A DNA stretch of 33,036 nucleotides, from assembly GCA_021820105.1 (NCBI GenBank), contig JAKAED010000024.1, positions 1 to 33,036 on the forward strand, read 5' to 3'. Positions 13,855-25,132 of this stretch are shown piece by piece. This stretch comes from Actinomycetes bacterium. Its GTDB lineage: Bacteria; Actinomycetota; Thermoleophilia; Solirubrobacterales; Solirubrobacteraceae. Position 1 is the stretch's first letter. The number at the start of each line of letters is the position of its first letter. A model generated the notes under the pieces. It ran no database searches, was not told where the DNA came from, and was given only the letters and a program-made list of their open reading frames with translations. A program made the position numbers and the translations under genes.

Positions 13855-15333
13855 CTACATGTTGATGCTGGACTTCAGCAGGTTGAAATGCGGCCCTGTG
13901 ACGTGCTGGGTGCCCCGCTGCACAAGACCAACCGCATACGCCGGCCAGAACACGGAGACCGGAGGGTCGCCCGCGCCACACGGACCATCGGAGTTGCCCG
14001 GGTTGTTGAACCAAAGGAATCCGTCGACATACTCGTAGCCGGTGTTCCAGCTGAGCGGCCCGGTGCCCCTTCCGGGCGGATTGCACAGGTTCTCGTTGCC
14101 GTTGTGAACCCGATCCCCGGGTACCAGTGGCCCGCGACCGTTGTCCCCGGTCTGGACGATGAAGTGCTTCCCGCCGGTCAGCCGTGCGATCTGCTGTCCA
14201 TAGTGAACGTCAGTGGTCGTCCAGTCATTGTGGGTTGCATTGACGTAAAAGCCCGCCGCCTGAGCGATATCAGCCTCCCGCAGATACCGCGCGGTCTGCG
14301 CGGCTGTCAGCCACGCGTCAGGAGCACCAGCATCCATGTACACGAGCAGGTGCGGGTCCCGCGAAAGGGTCTTGACTGCAAAGGCAAGCTCCTGGAGCCG
14401 GGTCTGCAGTTGTCCTGCGGAGAGGCAGTGGACCTCAATGAGCGAGTCCTCCTCCAGGTAGAGCACCACTCGGAAGTTGCCGATTCCGTTGGCGAGCTGG
14501 GTGATCCACTGCTCGTAGCGACTCTTGATCGCCGCAGGGTCCTGACAGGCGCCATGTACGAGTGAGTAGGTGCTCAGCGGGATGGTTGTGTTGGGCTGCG
14601 CGACCTCAGCGTCCGCCAGGTACTTCTCGACCGTTGAGGCCAGCGAGCGAGCCGGTTGGTTCCACATCCAGAAACGGAAGCTTCCGGAGCCCGGGGTGTA
14701 GGCGATCGTATGCAACGCCTGCGTCCAAGCGGGCTTCTCCGCGTAATGGCCAAGGTGCTGGCCAGCCGGCGATTGGTTGCCAAACACGTACCAGTGGACG
14801 TACTGGAGCGGATCGCCGTTCGTGGGCGCCTGCGGGTACCCCAACGGGTTCTCAGCGTTCCTCACGGCGAGGGGGTCGTTCTGGAGCAGTTCGATCGTCG
14901 CCTTGCTGGGTGACCCAAGCGGCTGTGGATGTGCGCCGTAGAGATAGGCACGCGCCGTCCGCATCGGCCCGTTGATGCCCTGATCATGGATCGTCACGTA
15001 GAACGTGTAGGTGCTCTGACCTGGGGCGAAGTCGGCCTCGCTGTTGCCGATCTTGTCGAAGTTTGAGCCCGCCGAGGCGCTCTTGTTCGTGACGCCGTAG
15101 TAGACGATCTCGGGGCCGCTGGCGTTGGTGCGCTGGATCGTGACGGCGAACCTCCCGACGTTCTCACTGGCCCGATACACGGAACTGCTGAAGAACACCG
15201 ATCCGGTGCCCGTACTGCCGGAGCTGTCGTGCCCGGTGCGTGCGCCTGCCAGGGCCGGCGGCGCGAACATCAGGCACGATGCGATCGTGATGAATCCTGA
15301 TATGAGACGGCGTAGCTTGGTCACAAGGTCCAT
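13855..15333 (-). CDS. Secreted Calx-beta domain plus glycoside hydrolase family 6-like protein
   Basis: A 492-residue exported protein. Residues 1-30 are a signal peptide ending PPALAGA. About 45-152 is a Calx-beta-like domain (SVYRASENVGRFAVTIQRT, SASAGSNFDKI, FAPGQSTYTFYVTI). About 160-490 resembles GH6 cellulases: YLEEDSL (292-298, replacing the usual EPDSL, D296 the likely acid), YMDAGAPDAWL (332-342), GFYVNATHND, TGGKHFIVQTGDNGRGP (386-402), CNPPGRGTG (417-425) and VDGFLWFNNPGNSDGPCG. GH6 enzymes cut beta-1,4-glucan by inversion. The ATG at 15331-15333 is chosen for a normal signal peptide; an in-frame GTG at 15348 would add five residues, and neither has a clear ribosome site. A strong terminator follows. 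No other cellulase gene is nearby. Confidence 0.82.
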   Translation of the reverse strand: MDLVTKLRRLISGFITIASCLMFAPPALAGARTGHDSSGSTGTGSVFFSSSVYRASENVGRFAVTIQRTNASGPEIVYYGVTNKSASAGSNFDKIGNSEADFAPGQSTYTFYVTIHDQGINGPMRTARAYLYGAHPQPLGSPSKATIELLQNDPLAVRNAENPLGYPQAPTNGDPLQYVHWYVFGNQSPAGQHLGHYAEKPAWTQALHTIAYTPGSGSFRFWMWNQPARSLASTVEKYLADAEVAQPNTTIPLSTYSLVHGACQDPAAIKSRYEQWITQLANGIGNFRVVLYLEEDSLIEVHCLSAGQLQTRLQELAFAVKTLSRDPHLLVYMDAGAPDAWLTAAQTARYLREADIAQAAGFYVNATHNDWTTTDVHYGQQIARLTGGKHFIVQTGDNGRGPLVPGDRVHNGNENLCNPPGRGTGPLSWNTGYEYVDGFLWFNNPGNSDGPCGAGDPPVSVFWPAYAVGLVQRGTQHVTGPHFNLLKSSINM

Positions 15334-15476
15334 ATCGGTTACACGCACGGCCGATTTGAATGTCGCGCCGCGGGATCAACTTTTTTTCGATCATCCGCAT
15401 CCATGACCGCCGGCAGCTGGACGGCAGGCCGTCACGTGAGGCCCCGGTGACGGCATCGGACTGAGACAATCTCCGG

Positions 15477-16886
15477 ATGACCCACGGCACCCGCCTGACG
15501 GCCCTCGACCACTCCTTCCTGGAACTGGAGGGGCGCACGACTCACATGCACGTCGGCGGCTGTGCGATCTTCGATGGCCCAGCTCCGGCCTACCAGGAGC
15601 TGGTCGACGCTGTCGCCGGTCGGCTGGACATGGTGCCTCGCTACCGCCAGCGGTTGCTCCCCGTCCCATTCGGTCAGGGACGGCCGGTGTGGGTTGACGA
15701 TCCTCAGTTCAGATTGCCGTTTCACCTGCGGCACACCGCGCTGCCGGCACCTGGCAGCGAGGCGCAGCTGCGGCGTCTGGCGGGTCGGATCTTCTCCCAG
15801 GCCCTTGATCGTGGGCGTCCGCTCTGGGAGCTCTGGCTTGTCGAGGGTTTGACCGGTGACCGTTTTGCCCTGATCTCAAAGACGCATCATGCGCTGATTG
15901 ACGGCGTCTCCGGAGTCGACATCGCGAGCGTGATCTTCGATACCGCTCCCAACCCGGAGTCCTCCGCCCCGCCTGCACGTCCGTGGGCGCCACGACCGCT
16001 CCCGTCCGCCGCCCAACTCCTGGCCGACGCGCTCATCGAGCGCGGCACCAAACCCGCTGAGGCCGTGCAGACGCTCAGTGCCTTGGCAACCGGTCCACGG
16101 GCGCTCGTGGGGCGGCTTGGAGCGTCGATCGGTGGCCTTGGGAGCGTGGGCTGGATGGGTTTCGATCCGGCCCCGCGAAGCCCGTTCAACGTGCCGATTG
16201 GACCGCACCGCCGCTTCAGCTGGGTGGATGCCTCGCTCGCGGACTTCCAGAGGGTCAAGCGGGCTCGGCAGACGACGATCAACGACGTCATCCTGACCGT
16301 GGTCGCCGGAGCCCTGGGTGCTCACATGCGAAGTCATGGGCTGGATACGGACGGGCTCGTCCTGAGAGCACTGGTCCCGGTGTCGGTCCGCGATGGCTCT
16401 CAGCGCGGGGCACTCGGCAACCGGCTGGCGGCCATGCGCGCGCCGCTCCCCGTTGGCGTCATCGACCCACTCGTGCGACTCTCGACTGTGGCTGAGGCGA
16501 TGGCGTCAGTCAAGCGGTCCGGGCAGGCGGTGGGCGCGCAAGCACTCACCGAGTTGGCGGGTTTCGCGTCGCCCACGCTGGTCGCTCAGGCAGCCCGCCT
16601 GCAGACCCGCCAACGGCTCTTCAACCTGGTTGTGACCAACGTTCCGGGACCGCAGCAGCCGCTGTATCTGCTCGGTAGGCAGATGCTCGCGATCTACCCA
16701 CTGGTGCCGCTGGCCGCGAACACCGCACTTGGGATCGCGGTTCTCAGCTACAACGGCCGGCTTGATTTCGGACTGAATGGCGACTTTGATCAACTGCCAG
16801 ACCTGGAGGAGCTGGCCGACGAGCTGTCGCGGTCGATCCGGGAGATCGTTCAGGTCGCTTCGACCGCTGCGGCGGTCGCGAGCTGA
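15477..16886 (+). CDS. Wax ester synthase/diacylglycerol acyltransferase (WS/DGAT)
   Basis: A 469-residue membrane-associated acyltransferase that makes wax esters or triacylglycerol from acyl-CoA. The catalytic HHxxxDG motif is intact as HHALIDG (137-143). Other family landmarks are MTHGTRLTALDHSFLELE at the N-terminus, RPLWELWLVEGL (114-125), FNLVVTNVPGPQQPLYLLGR, and SYNGRLDFGLNGD near the C-terminus. Length is typical. The first ATG is used; the ribosome site before it (TCCGGATG) is weak. The gene is convergent with the hotdog thioesterase and overlaps it by 37 bases. Storage-lipid synthesis is common in actinobacteria; the substrate choice cannot be read here. Confidence 0.93.
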   Translation: MTHGTRLTALDHSFLELEGRTTHMHVGGCAIFDGPAPAYQELVDAVAGRLDMVPRYRQRLLPVPFGQGRPVWVDDPQFRLPFHLRHTALPAPGSEAQLRRLAGRIFSQALDRGRPLWELWLVEGLTGDRFALISKTHHALIDGVSGVDIASVIFDTAPNPESSAPPARPWAPRPLPSAAQLLADALIERGTKPAEAVQTLSALATGPRALVGRLGASIGGLGSVGWMGFDPAPRSPFNVPIGPHRRFSWVDASLADFQRVKRARQTTINDVILTVVAGALGAHMRSHGLDTDGLVLRALVPVSVRDGSQRGALGNRLAAMRAPLPVGVIDPLVRLSTVAEAMASVKRSGQAVGAQALTELAGFASPTLVAQAARLQTRQRLFNLVVTNVPGPQQPLYLLGRQMLAIYPLVPLAANTALGIAVLSYNGRLDFGLNGDFDQLPDLEELADELSRSIREIVQVASTAAAVAS

Positions 16887-17299
16887 GCCGCCTGTTCCTC
16901 AGAAAGCTGACGCACCGCCAGAGTGATGCGTGAGAGAGCGCAGACCCGGCCCTGATCGTCGCGCATCTCAACCTCCCACACCCAGGTGGTCCTCCCCGCG
17001 TGCCTGCATGTGGCTTCGGCGTGGATTGTCCCGCCGGTCACAGGTCGCAGGAAGCTCGTGTGGTTGGACATGCCGCTGGCGCTGTAACCGTCGGCAAGCA
17101 CGACCAACGCCGTCGAGTATGAGGCGAGCCCCTCTGCAATAGCCGCGTAGACACCACCGTGCACAAGCCCAAACGGCTGCTTGTGCTGGTCGGTCACGAC
17201 CAGTCGGCCGCGTGCGATCTTCGGCCCCAGCTCAAGCATTTCGAGCCCGTACCAGGCGTCGAAACCGAGGCTGCGCCTGAAGTTCTCGGGGTTGATCAT
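16850..17299 (-). CDS. Hotdog-fold thioesterase, PaaI/EntH-like
   Basis: A 149-residue acyl-CoA thioesterase of the hotdog superfamily. The key stretch FGLVHGGVYAAIAEGLAS (43-60) has the HGG (47-49) and the catalytic Glu (E56) of the PaaI/EntH/YbdB group, and MSNHTSFLRPVTGG follows as usual. The C-terminus (SRITLAVRQ) is normal, with an Ala-rich tail of about 20 residues lying in the overlap with the WS/DGAT gene. The proximity to an acyltransferase suggests acyl-CoA housekeeping, but the two are convergent and so not co-transcribed. Confidence 0.87.
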   Translation of the reverse strand: MINPENFRRSLGFDAWYGLEMLELGPKIARGRLVVTDQHKQPFGLVHGGVYAAIAEGLASYSTALVVLADGYSASGMSNHTSFLRPVTGGTIHAEATCRHAGRTTWVWEVEMRDDQGRVCALSRITLAVRQLSEEQAAQLATAAAVEAT

Positions 17300-17377: not shown

Positions 17378-18451
17378 ATGGCTGCCCTGAACGACCTGCC
17401 GCCGGACCAGCGCGCGGTGCTGCAGCTGGTTCTGCAACGCGGCCGCACATACGACGAGATCGCGGGCATGCTCGCCATCGACCGAGCCGCTGTGCGCCAG
17501 CGTGCCCTGGCCGCACTCGACGCCTTGACGCCGGCGGATGTGCTTCCGGGCCCCGAGCGCGAACTGGTCAGTGACTACCTGCTCGGCCAGCTGCCAGAGA
17601 AGGTCTCCGAGCAGGTTCATGGCTACCTGCAGGCCGCCGAGGCCGACCGCCACTGGGCTGCTTCGCTGATTGAGCTGATCGCCCCGCTCGCAACCACAGG
17701 GCTGCCACCGATCCCAGCGGCCGCACACACCACATCGGCGGCTTCGGATGAGGTCGCCGTCGGCGCCCCGCTGGGCGCCGACGGCGACGCAGCCGGCGAG
17801 CTGCATCAGAACAGCCATCCGACTCAGACTCGGCCTGTGGAGCTGATGCAAAGCGGTCCGACCGGCGGTCAACCCGCGCGCCACCGCAGCTCGCGCCGTG
17901 GTGGCGCGATCCTGCTCGTGATCACCGTACTGCTGCTGGCGGTGGCGGTGACGGTTGCAGGACTCTCCGGCACCGGCTCCAGGACCGGTGGCGCCAAGGG
18001 CGGCGGTGGCGCGACCACCACAACCCAACCGCGGACCACCCGCACGGTGCCCACAGCCACGACGACAATCTCCACGGCGACCGTCAGCACCAGACCGCAG
18101 ATACTCTCCCGGCTGGCGCTGAGTTCGCCCACCGGTGCCACCGCGACCATCGGGATCGCCGAGGTGGTGCGAGAGGGTCACCTCACCGGCGTGGTGGTCG
18201 ACGCCCAGGGCATGCCCGCCAACAGCGCCCACAACGCCTACGGCGTCTGGCTGTACAACTCACCGGCAAGCGCCAGGTTCGTAGGCTTCGTCCCGAACCT
18301 CGTCGGCAAGTCCGGCAAGCTCGCGGCGGAAGGCCAACTGCCGGCCAACGCGTCCGACTTCCACCGGTTACTGATCACGCTCGAGACCCAGCGTCATCCG
18401 AGCACTCCCGGAGAGGTCGTCCTGAGCGGCCCCTTCCGCGAGCATCCCTGA
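17378..18451 (+). CDS. Sigma region 4-like HTH fused to a membrane helix and RskA-like anti-sigma C-terminal domain
   Basis: A 357-residue membrane regulator. Residues 4-52 resemble sigma-70 region 4 (LPPDQRAVLQLVLQRGRTYD, EIAGMLAIDRAAVRQR). Residues 60-105 (RELVSDYLLGQLPEKVSEQV) resemble the N-terminal anti-sigma segment but lack the His/Cys zinc ligands. After a low-complexity linker comes one transmembrane helix (about 176-197), a Thr-rich external linker (212-238), and a C-terminal domain (about 245-353) resembling anti-sigma-K factor RskA (YGVWLYNSPASARFVGF, LLITLETQ, GEVVLSG). Regions 2 and 3 of a sigma factor are absent, so it cannot act as a normal sigma factor. A signal-transducing DNA-binding or sigma-sequestering role is inferred. 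The same architecture is, to my memory, seen in Thermoleophilia. Confidence 0.75.
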   Translation: MAALNDLPPDQRAVLQLVLQRGRTYDEIAGMLAIDRAAVRQRALAALDALTPADVLPGPERELVSDYLLGQLPEKVSEQVHGYLQAAEADRHWAASLIELIAPLATTGLPPIPAAAHTTSAASDEVAVGAPLGADGDAAGELHQNSHPTQTRPVELMQSGPTGGQPARHRSSRRGGAILLVITVLLLAVAVTVAGLSGTGSRTGGAKGGGGATTTTQPRTTRTVPTATTTISTATVSTRPQILSRLALSSPTGATATIGIAEVVREGHLTGVVVDAQGMPANSAHNAYGVWLYNSPASARFVGFVPNLVGKSGKLAAEGQLPANASDFHRLLITLETQRHPSTPGEVVLSGPFREHP

Positions 18452-18561: not shown

Positions 18562-18653
18562 CGAGCCCTAACACATCGCTTAGCGGAGCTTCGGATACAG
18601 GCACTTCAATTCTGACCGTCACCCCACCAGCAGTGCAGGAGGCCGGGAAGCTA

Positions 18654-21600
18654 ATGGATATTGAAGCGCCCATCCGCGGCGTAGAAGGCGCACGCCTCGA
18701 GACAACTCAACAGGTTCCCTCGCCCGCTCTAGGCGATTCTGTCGCGCGTCAGCGAACACTGCTCGACATCTTTCGTCAGACCGCGACGCGCTGGCCGCTG
18801 CGTACCGCACTGGAAGCTCCGGACGGCACCTACAGCTATGCCGAACTCTCCGAGGCAGCCGGTGAACTGGCCTGGCGACTGCACACGCATGGGATTGGAC
18901 GCGGTGACCGTGTGGCGGTGCGCGTCAGCAGCGGTCGTGCTGAGCTCTACATCGCCATCCTCGGCGTCCTGCTCGCAGGCGCGGCATATGTGCCGATTGA
19001 CGCTGAGGACCCCGCGGAACGGGTGCACCACATTCTCCAGAGTTCCGTCGCCTGTGCGACGGTCGCCGACGGTCTCAAGTTCGAACTGCATCGCAAGCCG
19101 ACGCTGGCGACGGTCAACGAACCCACGCCGGACGATGACGCTTGGGTCATCTTCACCTCCGGAACCACCGGGGTTCCCAAGGGGGTGGCGGTGACACATC
19201 GGTCGGCCGCCGCCTTCGTGGACGCTGAATCCCGCCTATGGGAGGTGCTCCCTCAGGATCGCGTGCTGGCGGGCCTCTCAGTTGGCTTTGACGCGAGCTG
19301 CGAGGAGATCTGGCTCGCCTGGGCTCACGGCGCTGCCCTGATTCCGGCTCCCCGTGCGGTGGTACGAGCCGGCGAGGAGCTGGGGAACTGGCTGGTCGAT
19401 CGCGGAGTCACCGTCGTCTCCACGGTTCCGACACTGGCCGCACTCTGGGATGAGTCCTGCCTACATCGGGTCCGTCTGCTGATTCTCGGAGGCGAAGCCT
19501 GTCCCGAGAAGCTCGGCTGGCGGCTGGCGGCCGGGCGGGAGGTCTGGAACACCTACGGGCCGACCGAGGCAACGGTCGTCTCCACGGCCTGCCGCATCAT
19601 TCCCGGCGAGCCGATCACGATCGGACTGCCGCTTGAGGGCTGGGAGGTCGCGGTGATGGAGGGAGACCATCCGGTTGAGTCCGGCGAGAGCGGTGAGCTC
19701 GTGATCGGTGGTGTGGGGTTGGCCCGCTATCTGGACCCGGAGCTTGACGCCGCGCGGTTCGCCGGCATCCCAACACTCGGCTGGGAGCGCGCCTACCGGA
19801 CCGGGGACATCGTTCGTCTGACAGCCGGCGGCCTGTCATTCCTCGGCCGGCGCGACGACCAGGTCAAGATCGGCGGCCGTCGCATCGAGCTGGGCGAGGT
19901 CGAGGCAATGCTTCAGTCAGCCCCAGGCGTGTCGGTGGCCGCCGTGGCCGTGCGTGAGAGCGTCTCCGGGAACAAGCTGCTGGTCGGCTACATCGTCGGC
20001 GATGCGGATTCTGAGTCCGTGCGCCACCATGCGGCAAGACACCTGCCTGCCGCGATGGTTCCCCTCGTGGTCAACCTGCCCAGCATGCCGATGTCAGCTG
20101 CCGGCAAGGTCGATCGCCGCGCGCTGCCGTGGCCGGTCGGCGACGATCAGGCCGCACTCGCGGCCGGCATCGGGGCTGACGGCACCGTGCTCTCAGAACA
20201 TGAGGTGTGGGTCGGCCAACAGTGGGCAGCTCAGATCGGTCCTGTCCCGATCGGGCCAAATACAGACTTCTTTGCCTGCGGGGGCACCAGTCTCGCCGCC
20301 GCGAAGCTGATCTCGAGTGTTCGGTCGCGATATCCGGCCGTCGCGGTTGCGGATATCTACAAGAACCCGACACTCCGCACCTTCGCGCAGAGGCTCCACG
20401 ACATTGCGGCACCCGCCCGGGCCGAGGCGGTGGAGTCACTTCCGGGGAGGCGACTGTTCGCACTGGCCCAACTTGCGGGAATGATCGTGCTGTTCGCGAT
20501 CGGGGCGGTGCCCTGGTTGCTGGCCACCCTCGCCTACGGCGACATCTTCCCGCTGGGAACGCCTCATGTCGGCTGGCTGTGGCTGGTCGCCGCCTACGCG
20601 CTGCTGGCCAGCCCGCCAGCCCACGCGGGGATGCACGTGCTTGCGGCGCGCAGCCTGTTGAGCAAGGTGACACCCGGCCGTCACTCCCGCTACAGCTCGC
20701 TCACCTGGCGGCTCTGGTTCGTGGAACGGCTCGCCGAGGTCTGTCATGGCGCTCGTCTCGGTGGCACACCGTGGGCGGACCGCTACGCCCGGCTGTTGGG
20801 CGCCAAGGTGGGTGAGGGCGCGCGCCTCGGTTCAATGCCGTCGCTCGGCGCGCTGCTCACTGTCGGTCCCGGTGCAACGATCGAAGGCAACGTGGACCTC
20901 CACGGCTGGATGATCGAAGGTGAGCAGCTGGTCGTCGGTCCGATCACGGTGGGTGCAGACGCCCGCATCGGCACCCGCACGCTGCTTTCGCCCGGTGCGG
21001 TGGTCGGCGCCGGCGCGGAGATCGAGCCTGGCAGCGTCGTCCAGGGCGTCGTGCCGGAGCGCGAGTGCTGGAGTGGGGTACCTGCGGTGGCAGTGGGCAC
21101 AGCCGGCGTCAACTGGCCAGCACAACCGCCGCAGCCATCGCATCATGCTCGCGGCCTGCGATTGATGTTCGCCTTGAGCCTCCCCCTTGAGGCGCTGCTG
21201 GGAACTCTGGCCGCGGCGCCCGCAACCCTGCTGATCTACCTGCTCGGAGGCTTCGCCCCCACTCCCGGTCGTCCACTCTTGGGGATCATGGTGGAGATCG
21301 TCTGCGAGGTTGTGATCACAGTCCCAGTGTTTGCGCTGCTGGTGGCGCTGACGCTGCGCTTCGTGTGGCGGTTTGTCAAACCAGGCTGGTACCCGGAGTA
21401 CGAGGCGGTCGGCTGGGCGCTGTGGTTCAGCGAGGAGCTCCGCGGGACCGCCGCCACCTACCTGTTCCCGCTCTACGCGTCGCTCTACACCCGCGCCTGG
21501 CTGCGCCTGATGGGGCTGCAGGTGGGCCGGCGCACCGAGGTGTCGACCAGCACCGGACTGAGCCCGATGGTTTCGTTCGGTGCCTACAGCCAGAGCACCG

Positions 21601-22529
21601 ACGACGTTGGCTTCTGCTGTGCGCGCGCGCGTGGCGGCTGGATTCATGTGGCGCCGGTGACCGTTGGGGATCGGAGCTTCCTCGGCCCCGGCGCCGTGCT
21701 GAAGGGAGACACGAGGATGGGCGACCGCAGCCTCCTGGGCGTGCTCACGCTCGCCCCGCGGCAGATCCCGGAGGGAACCTCCTGGTTCGGCGTTCCGGCG
21801 CTCGAGCTGCCCCGCCAACCGGACTTCTGTGACGTGAGCAGAACCACCGATCCGCCGCGGCGTCTGATCCTGGCGCGGGGTGTGATGGATCTGGTGCGGC
21901 TCTTCCTTCCAAACACCATCGCACTGACGATCGGCGCCGGTGAGATCTTCGCCATGGCCGAGATCTTCCGCGTGCTCGGCCCAGCCGCCGCCGTGATCCT
22001 CGCGCCGCTGGTGCTGCTTGCCGGTGCTGTCTGCGCGACCGTCATCACCGTGATCCTCAAGTGGATCGTGATAGGCCACTACAGGCGTGGAGAGCACCCG
22101 CTCTGGTCGTGGTTTGTGTGGCGCGACGAGCTGATCAACTCTGCGCAAGAGCAGCTCGCCGGCTCGCTGCTCGGCAACGCGCTGGGGACGCCGCTGATGT
22201 CGCTCTATCTGAGAGCACTTGGTGCCCGCGTCGGACGCGGCGTGTGGCTTGAGTCGCTGGCGGTGACCGAGTACGAGATGATCACGCTCGGTGACGGGGT
22301 GGCGGTCAACCGCGGCGCTTGCCTGATGACGCACCTGTTCCACGACCGGCTTCTGCGTATCGGTCCGACGGAGCTGCAGGCCGGCGCCACGCTTGGCCCC
22401 ACCGCCGCTGTCCTGCCTGACACGATGATTGGTGTCGGCACATCAGTCGCCGGCCACTCGGTTGTGCTCCGCGGCGAGGAGTTGCCGTCGGGAACCCGCT
22501 GGCAGGGAGCGCCTGTTGTCGCGTGCTGA
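18654..22529 (+). CDS. Pls-like single-module NRPS: epsilon-poly-amino-acid synthetase family
   Basis: A 1291-residue membrane NRPS. Adenylation domain about 35-495 with A3 FTSGTTGVPKGVAVTH, A5 NTYGPTEATV, A7 YRTGDIVRL, A8 KIGGRRIELGEVEAML and A10 PMSAAGKVDR (K485). Thiolation domain about 512-585 with ACGGTSL (S546 carries phosphopantetheine). Then three repeats of two membrane helices plus a left-handed-beta-helix-like domain: helices about 603-660 and domain 715-820; helices 838-905 and domain 955-1055; helices 1080-1140 and domain 1185-1290. This is the A-T-(2TM-C)x3 layout and length of epsilon-poly-L-lysine synthetase Pls, which polymerises lysine through its side-chain amine without a standard condensation or thioesterase domain. 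The pocket code reads DAESIGTVVK, suggesting lysine or another basic residue. ATG 18654 is chosen for the AGGAGG upstream; in-frame GTG 18633 is an alternative. Confidence 0.88.
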   Translation: MDIEAPIRGVEGARLETTQQVPSPALGDSVARQRTLLDIFRQTATRWPLRTALEAPDGTYSYAELSEAAGELAWRLHTHGIGRGDRVAVRVSSGRAELYIAILGVLLAGAAYVPIDAEDPAERVHHILQSSVACATVADGLKFELHRKPTLATVNEPTPDDDAWVIFTSGTTGVPKGVAVTHRSAAAFVDAESRLWEVLPQDRVLAGLSVGFDASCEEIWLAWAHGAALIPAPRAVVRAGEELGNWLVDRGVTVVSTVPTLAALWDESCLHRVRLLILGGEACPEKLGWRLAAGREVWNTYGPTEATVVSTACRIIPGEPITIGLPLEGWEVAVMEGDHPVESGESGELVIGGVGLARYLDPELDAARFAGIPTLGWERAYRTGDIVRLTAGGLSFLGRRDDQVKIGGRRIELGEVEAMLQSAPGVSVAAVAVRESVSGNKLLVGYIVGDADSESVRHHAARHLPAAMVPLVVNLPSMPMSAAGKVDRRALPWPVGDDQAALAAGIGADGTVLSEHEVWVGQQWAAQIGPVPIGPNTDFFACGGTSLAAAKLISSVRSRYPAVAVADIYKNPTLRTFAQRLHDIAAPARAEAVESLPGRRLFALAQLAGMIVLFAIGAVPWLLATLAYGDIFPLGTPHVGWLWLVAAYALLASPPAHAGMHVLAARSLLSKVTPGRHSRYSSLTWRLWFVERLAEVCHGARLGGTPWADRYARLLGAKVGEGARLGSMPSLGALLTVGPGATIEGNVDLHGWMIEGEQLVVGPITVGADARIGTRTLLSPGAVVGAGAEIEPGSVVQGVVPERECWSGVPAVAVGTAGVNWPAQPPQPSHHARGLRLMFALSLPLEALLGTLAAAPATLLIYLLGGFAPTPGRPLLGIMVEIVCEVVITVPVFALLVALTLRFVWRFVKPGWYPEYEAVGWALWFSEELRGTAATYLFPLYASLYTRAWLRLMGLQVGRRTEVSTSTGLSPMVSFGAYSQSTDDVGFCCARARGGWIHVAPVTVGDRSFLGPGAVLKGDTRMGDRSLLGVLTLAPRQIPEGTSWFGVPALELPRQPDFCDVSRTTDPPRRLILARGVMDLVRLFLPNTIALTIGAGEIFAMAEIFRVLGPAAAVILAPLVLLAGAVCATVITVILKWIVIGHYRRGEHPLWSWFVWRDELINSAQEQLAGSLLGNALGTPLMSLYLRALGARVGRGVWLESLAVTEYEMITLGDGVAVNRGACLMTHLFHDRLLRIGPTELQAGATLGPTAAVLPDTMIGVGTSVAGHSVVLRGEELPSGTRWQGAPVVAC

Positions 22530-22535
22530 GCGCGA

Positions 22536-22988
22536 ATGCGCCCGAGCTGCGAGCTGATTCGCGTCCCAGAGGGCAGTACCGAGGCCGAACTGCGAGCGTT
22601 GGCCAGAACGCACCCGGCAGCAACCGGAGCGCGACACGTGTCGCGCTCCTACCGGCTTCCGCTGGCGCTGGTCGCGTGGGGGAACACGCGGCTCGGCGTT
22701 GACCTCGAGCGTGTGGAGGCAACCGAGCGGGACTTTGCGGAGTCCATCTGCACCCCGGACGAGCTCGCCGCGTTTGGCGAACGACTCGATGACGCCACCT
22801 TCGTCAGCTCGCTGTGGGCGAGTAAGGAGGCCCTTGCCAAGGCACTGGGAGACCCGCTCGGCTACGACCCGCGCCGCCTGGCGTCGCCGCTCGGCTGGGT
22901 GCAGGAGCGAGCGGGAAGCTGGCAGGCCAGGGAGTTCAGCCCCGCGCCAGAGCATGTGGCCTGGGTGGTATGGGAGCAGGCGGGCTAG
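22536..22988 (+). CDS. 4'-phosphopantetheinyl transferase, compact Sfp type
   Basis: A 150-residue protein that begins six bases after the synthetase stop, so it is almost certainly co-transcribed and coupled. It shows the family motifs LGVDLERV (53-60 region, Mg-binding Asp) and LWASKEALAKALGDPLGYD (WxxKEAxxK), giving transfer of phosphopantetheine from CoA to the serine of a carrier protein. At 150 residues it is shorter than Sfp (about 220), having a short N-terminal pseudo-repeat. The obvious client is S546 of the upstream synthetase. The ATG at 22536 has no good ribosome site, which fits translational coupling. An immediate hairpin follows the stop. Confidence 0.86.
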   Translation: MRPSCELIRVPEGSTEAELRALARTHPAATGARHVSRSYRLPLALVAWGNTRLGVDLERVEATERDFAESICTPDELAAFGERLDDATFVSSLWASKEALAKALGDPLGYDPRRLASPLGWVQERAGSWQAREFSPAPEHVAWVVWEQAG

Positions 22989-23820: not shown

Positions 23821-24372
23821 TCAGTCGTACTGAATCAGTGAGTGAACCTTGTAACCCTGCAGTTGCCTGCGGCCATGGAACGATTCGAGCTCGACAAGGA
23901 ACACGCAGGCCATCACCTGTCCACCAAGGCGTCCGACAAGCTCGGCCAGCGCGTGCGCCGTGCCGCCGGTGGCCAGGAGATCGTCATGGATGAGCACACG
24001 TGCCCCACCGGCAAACGCATCGGCATGCATCTCGAGCGCATCCACGCCGTATTCCAGCATGTACTCGGCGCTCACCGTCTCATGCGGCAGCTTGCCCCGC
24101 TTGCGAGCAGGCACAAAGCCCGCCTTGAGTGCATGGGCGAGCGCACCGCCGAGGATGAACCCACGGGCCTCTGCCGCCACAACGATGTCGATCTCAAGGT
24201 CGCGCGCGTAACGTGTCAGCCGGGCGACGGCTGCCGCCAGTGCCCGCGGATCGAGCAGCAGCGGAGTGATATCTCGAAACAGAATTCCGGGGGCTGGAAA
24301 GTCCGGGATGTCGCGCACATAGCCGGCGAGTTTGATGCCATCGTCAGCCACACCGTCAGGCATCGGTGACAT
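23821..24372 (-). CDS. apt: Adenine phosphoribosyltransferase
   Basis: A 183-residue cytosolic purine-salvage enzyme that makes AMP from adenine and PRPP. The PRPP-binding loop VLIHDDLLATGGTA (about 126-139) is intact, with the flanking EARGFILGGALAH and the FVPARKRGKLPHETVSAEY stretch typical of Apt. The N-terminal VRDIPDFPAPGILFRDITPLL is the family hallmark. The ATG lies one base after the merR stop. In many bacteria apt is next to relA, not here; its link to a cell-division-type regulator cluster seems accidental or actinobacterial. Confidence 0.94.
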   Translation of the reverse strand: MSPMPDGVADDGIKLAGYVRDIPDFPAPGILFRDITPLLLDPRALAAAVARLTRYARDLEIDIVVAAEARGFILGGALAHALKAGFVPARKRGKLPHETVSAEYMLEYGVDALEMHADAFAGGARVLIHDDLLATGGTAHALAELVGRLGGQVMACVFLVELESFHGRRQLQGYKVHSLIQYD

Positions 24373-24373
24373 C

Positions 24374-25132
24374 TCAGGACGCGATCTTGCGGAGATCGCG
24401 GATCAGCAGGAGGTGCTTCAGATGAGTGGTGACAGACGCCAGGTTCTCCAGTGCCTCAACGGCCTCACGGCGTCGCTCTGGGTTACGCGAGCGCAGCGCG
24501 GGCGCGAGGATGCTCTGCAGCAGAGCTGCCTCGCGGTCAGCTGAGGTTCGGAACACGCGCAGGTTGCGTCCGCCGACGCCGTATCGAGCCAGCTCTGAGA
24601 CGGCTCTGACGATCTCCCGCTCGGTGTCGTCAAAGTAGCGTGTGCCGGCGCGCAGCTCGCCTCGGATCACACCGAACTCGATCAGCTCGTTGATGAGCTT
24701 CGGCTCCGCGCCCGTCTCCTCAACAACGTCCTCAAGGGAGTAGAGCGAGCCCGGATCACGGCTCACCGAGGCTCGCCTCAGTGAGAGCGTGTCGCTGGGG
24801 GGCGCGACCTCGCGCTCGTTGCGACCACCGGCCAGCTCCTGCCTGATCACGCGCAGCGGCAGGAACTCATCGCGCTGCAACCGGAGAATCGTCCGCAGGC
24901 GCTGGACATCCTCCGGACTGTAGAGCCGGTAGCCACCCTGGGTGCGTCGCGGCGCCAGGAGTTTCTGATCTTCCAGATAGCGGATCTTTGAAATCGATAT
25001 GTCCGGGAACTCAAGCTCGAGTGCCTTGCAGACCGCGCCGATTGTGACCGCCTTCTGGCGCGGACGACCGTTAGCCGGGTCCGCGGCGTCCGGCAGCTGC
25101 ACGGGCACCTCCTGGCTATCGCCCATGACCAT
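24374..25132 (-). CDS. ftsR: MerR-family regulator, FtsR-like (Rv1828-like)
   Basis: A 252-residue DNA-binding protein. The N-terminal winged HTH is at about 28-95 (TIGAVCKALELEFPDISISK, IRYLEDQKLLAPRRTQGGYR, LYSPEDVQRLRTIL), with a C-terminal helical effector-like domain (YSLEDVVEETGAEPKLINEL, GTRYFDDTEREIVRAVSEL) rather than the short coiled coil of classical MerR. This two-domain form and the direct linkage to an FHA protein match Rv1827-Rv1828 (GarA-FtsR); in Corynebacterium FtsR activates ftsZ. The ATG overlaps the FHA stop by one base. A second ATG two codons later is also possible. No effector ligand can be read. Confidence 0.82.
   Translation of the reverse strand: MVMGDSQEVPVQLPDAADPANGRPRQKAVTIGAVCKALELEFPDISISKIRYLEDQKLLAPRRTQGGYRLYSPEDVQRLRTILRLQRDEFLPLRVIRQELAGGRNEREVAPPSDTLSLRRASVSRDPGSLYSLEDVVEETGAEPKLINELIEFGVIRGELRAGTRYFDDTEREIVRAVSELARYGVGGRNLRVFRTSADREAALLQSILAPALRSRNPERRREAVEALENLASVTTHLKHLLLIRDLRKIAS

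Follow-up and report, generated by a model that had tools for sequence, protein, structure and literature searches.

The two adjacent genes considered here are best read as encoding a single-module synthetase of the Pls family, which at the membrane likely turns L-lysine into epsilon-poly-L-lysine, and a compact Sfp-like phosphopantetheinyl transferase (PPTase), which likely primes it; judged from sequence and structural models, we put the probability of this at roughly 0.8. The Pls family is already known and NCBI names it in Solirubrobacteraceae. For the PPTase-paired lineage no report was found in open-licence literature, and we propose in addition that a histidine in the third of the synthetase's beta-helix domains serves in bond formation. 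By the window is meant the whole stretch of DNA analysed, 33,036 nucleotides, and the features within it are collected in Table 1.

How might the pair work? In the scheme proposed, all four steps of which we infer from sequence and models, the compact PPTase would attach phosphopantetheine to Ser546, the adenylation (A) domain would adenylate lysine and load it as a thioester, and the C-terminal part would then link this lysine to an acceptor lysine through the latter's side-chain amine. That part is pictured as a pseudo-trimer, made by fusion of three beta-helix domains (C1 to C3) and lying above six predicted membrane helices. In the fourth step H1227, an invariant histidine kept in the third domain only, would act as base; further candidate residues of the site are D1231, E1159 and E1206 and, from the second domain, D983.

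Table 1. Coordinates in the window of the features of the synthetase-PPTase pair.
Feature	Position	Strand	Basis
Pls-type synthetase gene, 1291 aa	18654..22529	+	ORF without internal stop; Pfam, TIGR02353
AGGAGG, likely ribosome-binding site, 11 bases 5' of the ATG	18637..18642	+	read from sequence
Adenylation domain, about residues 31-494	18744..20135	+	Pfam; code residues identical to 7wew
Carrier (T) domain with predicted phosphopantetheine site Ser546 (codon 20289-20291)	20187..20423	+	PF00550
First helix pair, about 599-668, predicted membrane	20448..20657	+	AlphaFold2 helices; hydropathy for the first helix only
C1 beta-helix domain, about 670-826	20661..21131	+	Hexapep; homologous to C3, hhalign 99.8%
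Second helix pair, about 832-907, predicted membrane	21147..21374	+	AlphaFold2 helices and hydropathy
C2 beta-helix domain with conserved D983 (codon 21600-21602)	21375..21833	+	homologous to C3, hhalign 99.1%
Third helix pair, about 1069-1139, predicted membrane	21858..22070	+	AlphaFold2 helices; hydropathy flags 1098-1143
C3 beta-helix domain, proposed condensation site E1159/E1206/H1227 (codon 22332-22334)/D1231	22086..22526	+	alignment conservation
Compact Sfp-type PPTase, 150 aa	22536..22988	+	ACPS superfamily

For the synthetase the ATG at 18654 is favoured as start over an in-frame GTG at 18633 because of the AGGAGG at 18637-18642. A sequence-only reading of this DNA had proposed an A-T module with a Pls-type terminal part behind it, resembling the Streptomyces albulus enzyme, and this is borne out. 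The 1291-residue frame is free of stops, and Pfam places AMP-binding at residues 40-358, AMP-binding_C at 415-485 and PP-binding at 522-581 (PF00501, PF13193 and PF00550 in the A and T parts), with hexapeptide repeats besides. The domain search which that reading had called for gave TIGR02353, the NCBIfam Pls/PosA terminal domain, at 489.8 bits versus a curated cut-off of 423.1, the match spanning residues 605-1288 and positions 2-695 of the 695 in the profile. The likeness to S. albulus Pls is upheld both by this match and by the closest solved relative, 7wew, with its identical ten-residue code. An unrelated acyltransferase tail, which the same reading had held out as a finding that would speak against it, is ruled out by the full-length TIGR02353 match; what stands there is the Pls/PosA terminal domain, which does have hexapeptide acyltransferases among its relatives. 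By sequence, then, the synthetase is a member of the Pls/PosA family, a kind already known. Its own genome (4.01 Mb in 264 contigs, 88.9% complete) has three TIGR02353 matches, with the window's synthetase alone exceeding the curated cut-off. The nearest named proteins are from Solirubrobacteraceae, and by these names the host probably belongs to that family. NCBI titles some of them 'Pls/PosA family non-ribosomal peptide synthetase', so that annotation already recognises this kind of enzyme there. Ser546 is a serine in 165 of 166 aligned rows, with a gap in the remaining one.

What would be polymerised? The specificity code of the A domain, DAESIGTVVK (D213, A214, E217, S256, I277, G279, T300, V308, V309 and K485), equals that of 7wew, the A domain of the S. 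albulus epsilon-poly-L-lysine synthase and best solved relative (514 bits), at all ten positions, and therefore lysine is the likely monomer. The ten positions keep to the PheA spacing, with no gaps. Of 120 protein rows, counting the query, 118 share this code, as does a Corynebacterium locus (L039); production of epsilon-poly-L-lysine has been shown experimentally for C. variabile, a relative in that genus (PMC8117764). In a distant clade the first four positions are DFEC or DFEV. According to PMC10522769, position two is Ala in lysine enzymes, Met for ornithine and Phe for diaminopropionate or diaminobutyrate, and the code phenylalanine of the distant clade is thus the residue tied there to the shorter diamino acids. 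Could the A domain instead activate another diamino acid (ornithine, diaminobutyrate, beta-lysine), giving a different cationic isopeptide? A specificity code has predictive value only, and in PosA small pocket changes shift monomer preference (PMC10522769). However, with ten of ten positions matching S. albulus Pls, with the codes given in that paper for PosA (DMEHNGTVSK) and the beta-lysine enzyme (DGESISVVNK) both different, and with DFEC or DFEV in the distant clade, we consider this quite improbable. Activation of a hydroxy or fatty acid, the other outcome that had been named as adverse, is ruled out by the Pls code in the A domain.

The second open reading frame begins six bases past the synthetase stop codon and, as had been noticed beforehand, it encodes an Sfp-type transferase. 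PF01648 is matched at 45.9 bits versus a cut-off of 25; the TIGR00556 score, 27.1 bits, is under the NCBIfam cut-off of 45.35. G54, E76, W94, K97, A99 and K102 are kept in all 120 aligned rows and D56, E58 and E98 in 119 of them, and the catalytic D/E/E/K set (D56, E58, E98, K102) is intact; we take the corresponding residues to have that role in Sfp. Compared with Sfp itself (4mrt, 1qr0), the fold is matched over 148 of the 150 residues, in effect the whole length, and the catalytic residues agree, but the two-lobed Sfp has 225-228 residues. Where Sfp has what we take to be its SISHS-like motif, the compact enzyme has SRSY. It is not the truncated remnant of a longer gene, as an upstream stop allows at most two extra codons (a 152-aa open frame), and its relatives are mostly of 130-190 aa among the 120 matches listed.

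Is the pair kept elsewhere? A check of related genomes had been suggested, and PPTase lies directly after Pls in eight of eight related loci (L008-L013, L018, L019) with at least 49% identity and the 3' flank present. Four further related Pls loci (L014-L017) end at contig ends, and in two genomes with cut loci, G013 and G049, the pair was found on another contig piece (L150, L152). PPTase is absent from the flank of L020, a distant Pls-like locus (34% identity) in a same-genus genome. At the level of the class, compact PPTase (E <= 1e-8) is in 13 of 299 genomes and TIGR02353 (E <= 1e-30) in 14 of 299, namely the 13 with PPTase and G666, the counts being from two draws of 299 class genomes each whose listed genomes agree except for G666. 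In the latter a distant Pls-like terminal domain lies in a 1595-aa frame (L161), with an A-domain-like match further along the locus. There are 15 PPTase places: 13 are directly downstream of Pls, one is at a contig end (L148, a second compact PPTase of G004, 61% identical, besides the one after that genome's Pls), and one, L160, a weak match of 36% identity, is without Pls. Because of shared descent the pair-conservation counts are less than independent. The distribution of Pls in the genus is patchy, matches of at least 50% identity reaching into the C-terminal part being found in 11 of 28 same-genus genomes, own included, of which 28 many are incomplete.

These distributions bear on the possibility that other carrier proteins are the main substrates of the compact PPTase, with its position after pls incidental. 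The genome has six further PP-binding matches above cut-off, and G004 has its second compact PPTase, L148, at a contig end. But no compact PPTase without Pls in the same genome was found among the 299 class genomes, and the directly downstream position at 13 of 15 places also argues for a role in priming the synthetase, so that an incidental position seems improbable to us. The pair is conserved in the class, but 'self-contained', as in the earlier suggestion of a 'self-contained biosynthetic unit', is too strong, because the genome encodes two further Sfp-like PPTases; for the same reason the compact partner of the synthetase may be dispensable.

As to the surroundings, beyond the PPTase are an apt-like phosphoribosyltransferase gene and a MerR gene (23821-25132, minus strand), also present in L009 and L010, and therefore part of the genus has the pair at one and the same chromosomal location. 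Might the locus be a transferred or decaying copy without function? Presence in the genus is patchy, but neither reading frame is broken, the catalytic residues are in place, and L009 and L010 have the apt-like and merR genes as well, all of which makes this very improbable. On the other side, at 15477-17299, are a wax-ester synthase/DGAT gene (plus strand) and a 4HBT thioesterase gene (minus strand), both of which are near Pls in L010 and the thioesterase also in L014. Further away a glycosyl hydrolase of family 6 with a Calx-beta domain is encoded at 13855-15348 on the minus strand; a 284-aa plus-strand ORF that overlaps it has no Pfam match and may be spurious. About 200 bases upstream of pls, at 17378-18451 on the plus strand, is a gene whose product contains sigma-70 region 4 and a stretch resembling RskA_C (under cut-off). 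As a shared regulator it had no match in the relatives' upstream flanks of about 1.5 kb, and it is not claimed as belonging to the unit.

Outside this lineage the gene that follows pls is usually a different one. Neighbours were examined at 47 loci from Pls or TIGR02353 searches, made up of 13 loci of a first set of 30, 10 of 80, and 24 of a second set of 30 (L117-L140), from which L001, the window itself, and five weak loci were left out. The set of 80 is from a scan of named genomes with A-domain patterns, most of whose loci are ordinary NRPS genes, and just the ten matching Pls over nearly its whole length were used. An M1-peptidase relative adjoins pls at 23 of the 47, PPTase at 10, both at none and neither at 14; of these last, four are cut at contig ends, and others are distant, or partial, or come with a flank of no more than 1.5 kb. 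Outside the PPTase lineage the peptidase is at 23 of 32 loci (L038, L039, L041-L045, L067 and L117-L140 being the 32); it is typed as Peptidase_M1 in L038 and L042, and in four of the 11 loci viewed (L038, L042, L123, L131) the longest frame starts 4 bases inside the pls stop. An overlap of 4 bp is described for S. albulus too, between pls and pldII, the gene for a polymer-degrading enzyme (PMC4361855), and by analogy the M1 peptidase would be the pldII counterpart. An M1-peptidase query had no match in five of five genomes of the PPTase lineage, the window's own, 88.9% complete, included, and matched four of four chosen control genomes. At the window locus the peptidase gene that adjoins pls in the usual Streptomyces context, a common but not strictly a defining companion of epsilon-poly-L-lysine synthetases, is absent, with the PPTase there instead.

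In the tree, a clade of 12 rows, 11 with peptidase and one, L039, whose flank has neither gene, has support of 100/100, and a Solirubrobacter-type clade of 13 rows, in which all eight whose flanks were viewed have PPTase, has support of 100/99. The PPTase-paired Acidimicrobiaceae protein L040 is apart from both, and since it branches there and unlabelled rows are intermixed, no single origin is claimed for the pairing. A further Solirubrobacter-type Pls-PPTase pair, inside that clade, is labelled Chlamydiae bacterium (L037) and is probably on a misbinned contig. The PPTase-paired lineage, in five genomes of which no peptidase relative was found, is a variant of Pls systems; searches of open-licence literature, not aimed at the compact PPTase as such, found no report of it.

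Turning to the C-terminal part, three repeats of two membrane helices plus a beta-helix had been foreseen. An AlphaFold2 model of residues 502-1291 (pLDDT 91.9, pTM 0.90) has three pairs of long helices at about 599-631/641-668, 832-863/875-907 and 1069-1108/1110-1139, with beta-helix strands after each pair, so that the six helices and three beta-helix domains hold in the model. But a plain hydropathy scan backs four membrane stretches (600-629, 837-867, 872-908, 1098-1143), leaving helix 641-668 unflagged and touching helix 1069-1108 at its end only, so membrane insertion of these two is unsupported by hydropathy; an extra segment it flags in the A domain, 96-118, is likely false. Foldseek gave hexapeptide acetyltransferases at low coverage, and VIA-align on the T+C model mostly carrier domains, with little information on the remainder.

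Where, then, would the isopeptide bond be made? H1227 is the sole histidine at >=97% among residues 500-1291 in an alignment of 166 rows, and no acidic residues besides D983, D1231, E1159 and E1206 are kept as well as that. H1227, D1231 and E1159 are identical in 162 of the 166 rows, all that reach them (the four without H1227 being the cut loci L014-L017), E1206 in 161 of 162, and D983 is D in 165, with a gap in the other. The rows include forms from Rhodobacter, Arthrobacter and Amycolatopsis at 23-25% identity, and contain neither PosA nor fungal forms; they are mostly close relatives, 120 being from one search at >=54% identity, and are hence not independent evidence. The C3 profile matches galactoside O-acetyltransferases at E about 1e-9, with H1227 on their TH, that of SACOL2570 included, in the three alignments shown. 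This histidine is presumably the catalytic residue in LacA. A gamma carbonic anhydrase heads the profile search but aligns over the repeats only, outside the histidine loop, which the second row, 3ixc, does include. The catalytic histidine loop of LacA/MAT-type O-acetyltransferases has its match in C3 only, with no conserved counterpart kept in C1 or C2. The place in C1 equivalent to H1227, W752, is occupied by W in 137 of the 166 rows, by Y in a further 14 and by H in 10, and because of these ten the loss of histidine in C1 is incomplete; the hhalign-equivalent place in C2 has A or V in 121 of 166. Since no other histidine of the T+C part is conserved, H1227 is aligned to the acetyltransferase TH, and C1 and C2 keep no such histidine, a single condensation site at H1227 is suggested; the one active site that we infer would lie either within C3 or where C3 borders on C2.

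Against this can be set the notion that all three beta-helix domains are catalytic, or that condensation occurs elsewhere and H1227 is structural. Profile comparison has C1 and C2 each homologous to C3, D983 of C2 is no less conserved than H1227, and there are several conserved arginines and tryptophans as well. The position of H1227 on the galactoside O-acetyltransferase TH, its being the sole conserved histidine, and the predominance of W in C1 and of A or V in C2 at the equivalent places nevertheless point to the single site, and the notion is doubtful, though deserving more weight than the other alternatives considered above. PMC10522769 states that structural information on the C-terminal domain is lacking and proposes one joint catalytic domain; its account of that domain names no catalytic residues there.

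A wider generalisation, that all Pls isopeptide bonds are formed at one histidine site, derived from hexapeptide acetyltransferases, in one of three fused copies, and that Thermoleophilia and some Acidimicrobiaceae have a separate poly-lysine lineage whose private compact PPTase replaces the peptidase of other actinobacteria, is offered with doubt and confidence about equally balanced. Epsilon-poly-L-lysine is an approved food preservative (PMC8117764), and a Pls lineage with a matched PPTase would be a ready two-gene cassette to try in laboratory hosts. The single invariant histidine would reduce the question of the bond-forming place to one mutant, and the proposal concerns a step that PMC10522769 describes as lacking structural resolution. 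The change of partner gene raises the question of how these bacteria tolerate their own polymer.

Set beside the epsilon-poly-L-lysine synthetase of S. albulus, the window's enzyme has the same A-T module, Pls/PosA C-terminal domain and ten-residue code, but there pldII overlaps pls (PMC4361855) and here a compact PPTase follows it. With PosA, the delta-poly-L-ornithine synthetase of Acinetobacter baumannii, it has family and domain order in common, and a model of the PosA C-terminal domain has likewise been interpreted as a single domain of three beta-helices; PosA differs in its ornithine code and in being reported as a single-gene operon (both as given in PMC10522769). The galactoside and maltose O-acetyltransferases share the hexapeptide fold, C3 matching the galactoside enzymes, whereas here three such domains are in one chain with six predicted membrane helices, and the donor, acetyl-CoA in those enzymes, is predicted to be a carrier-bound aminoacyl group.
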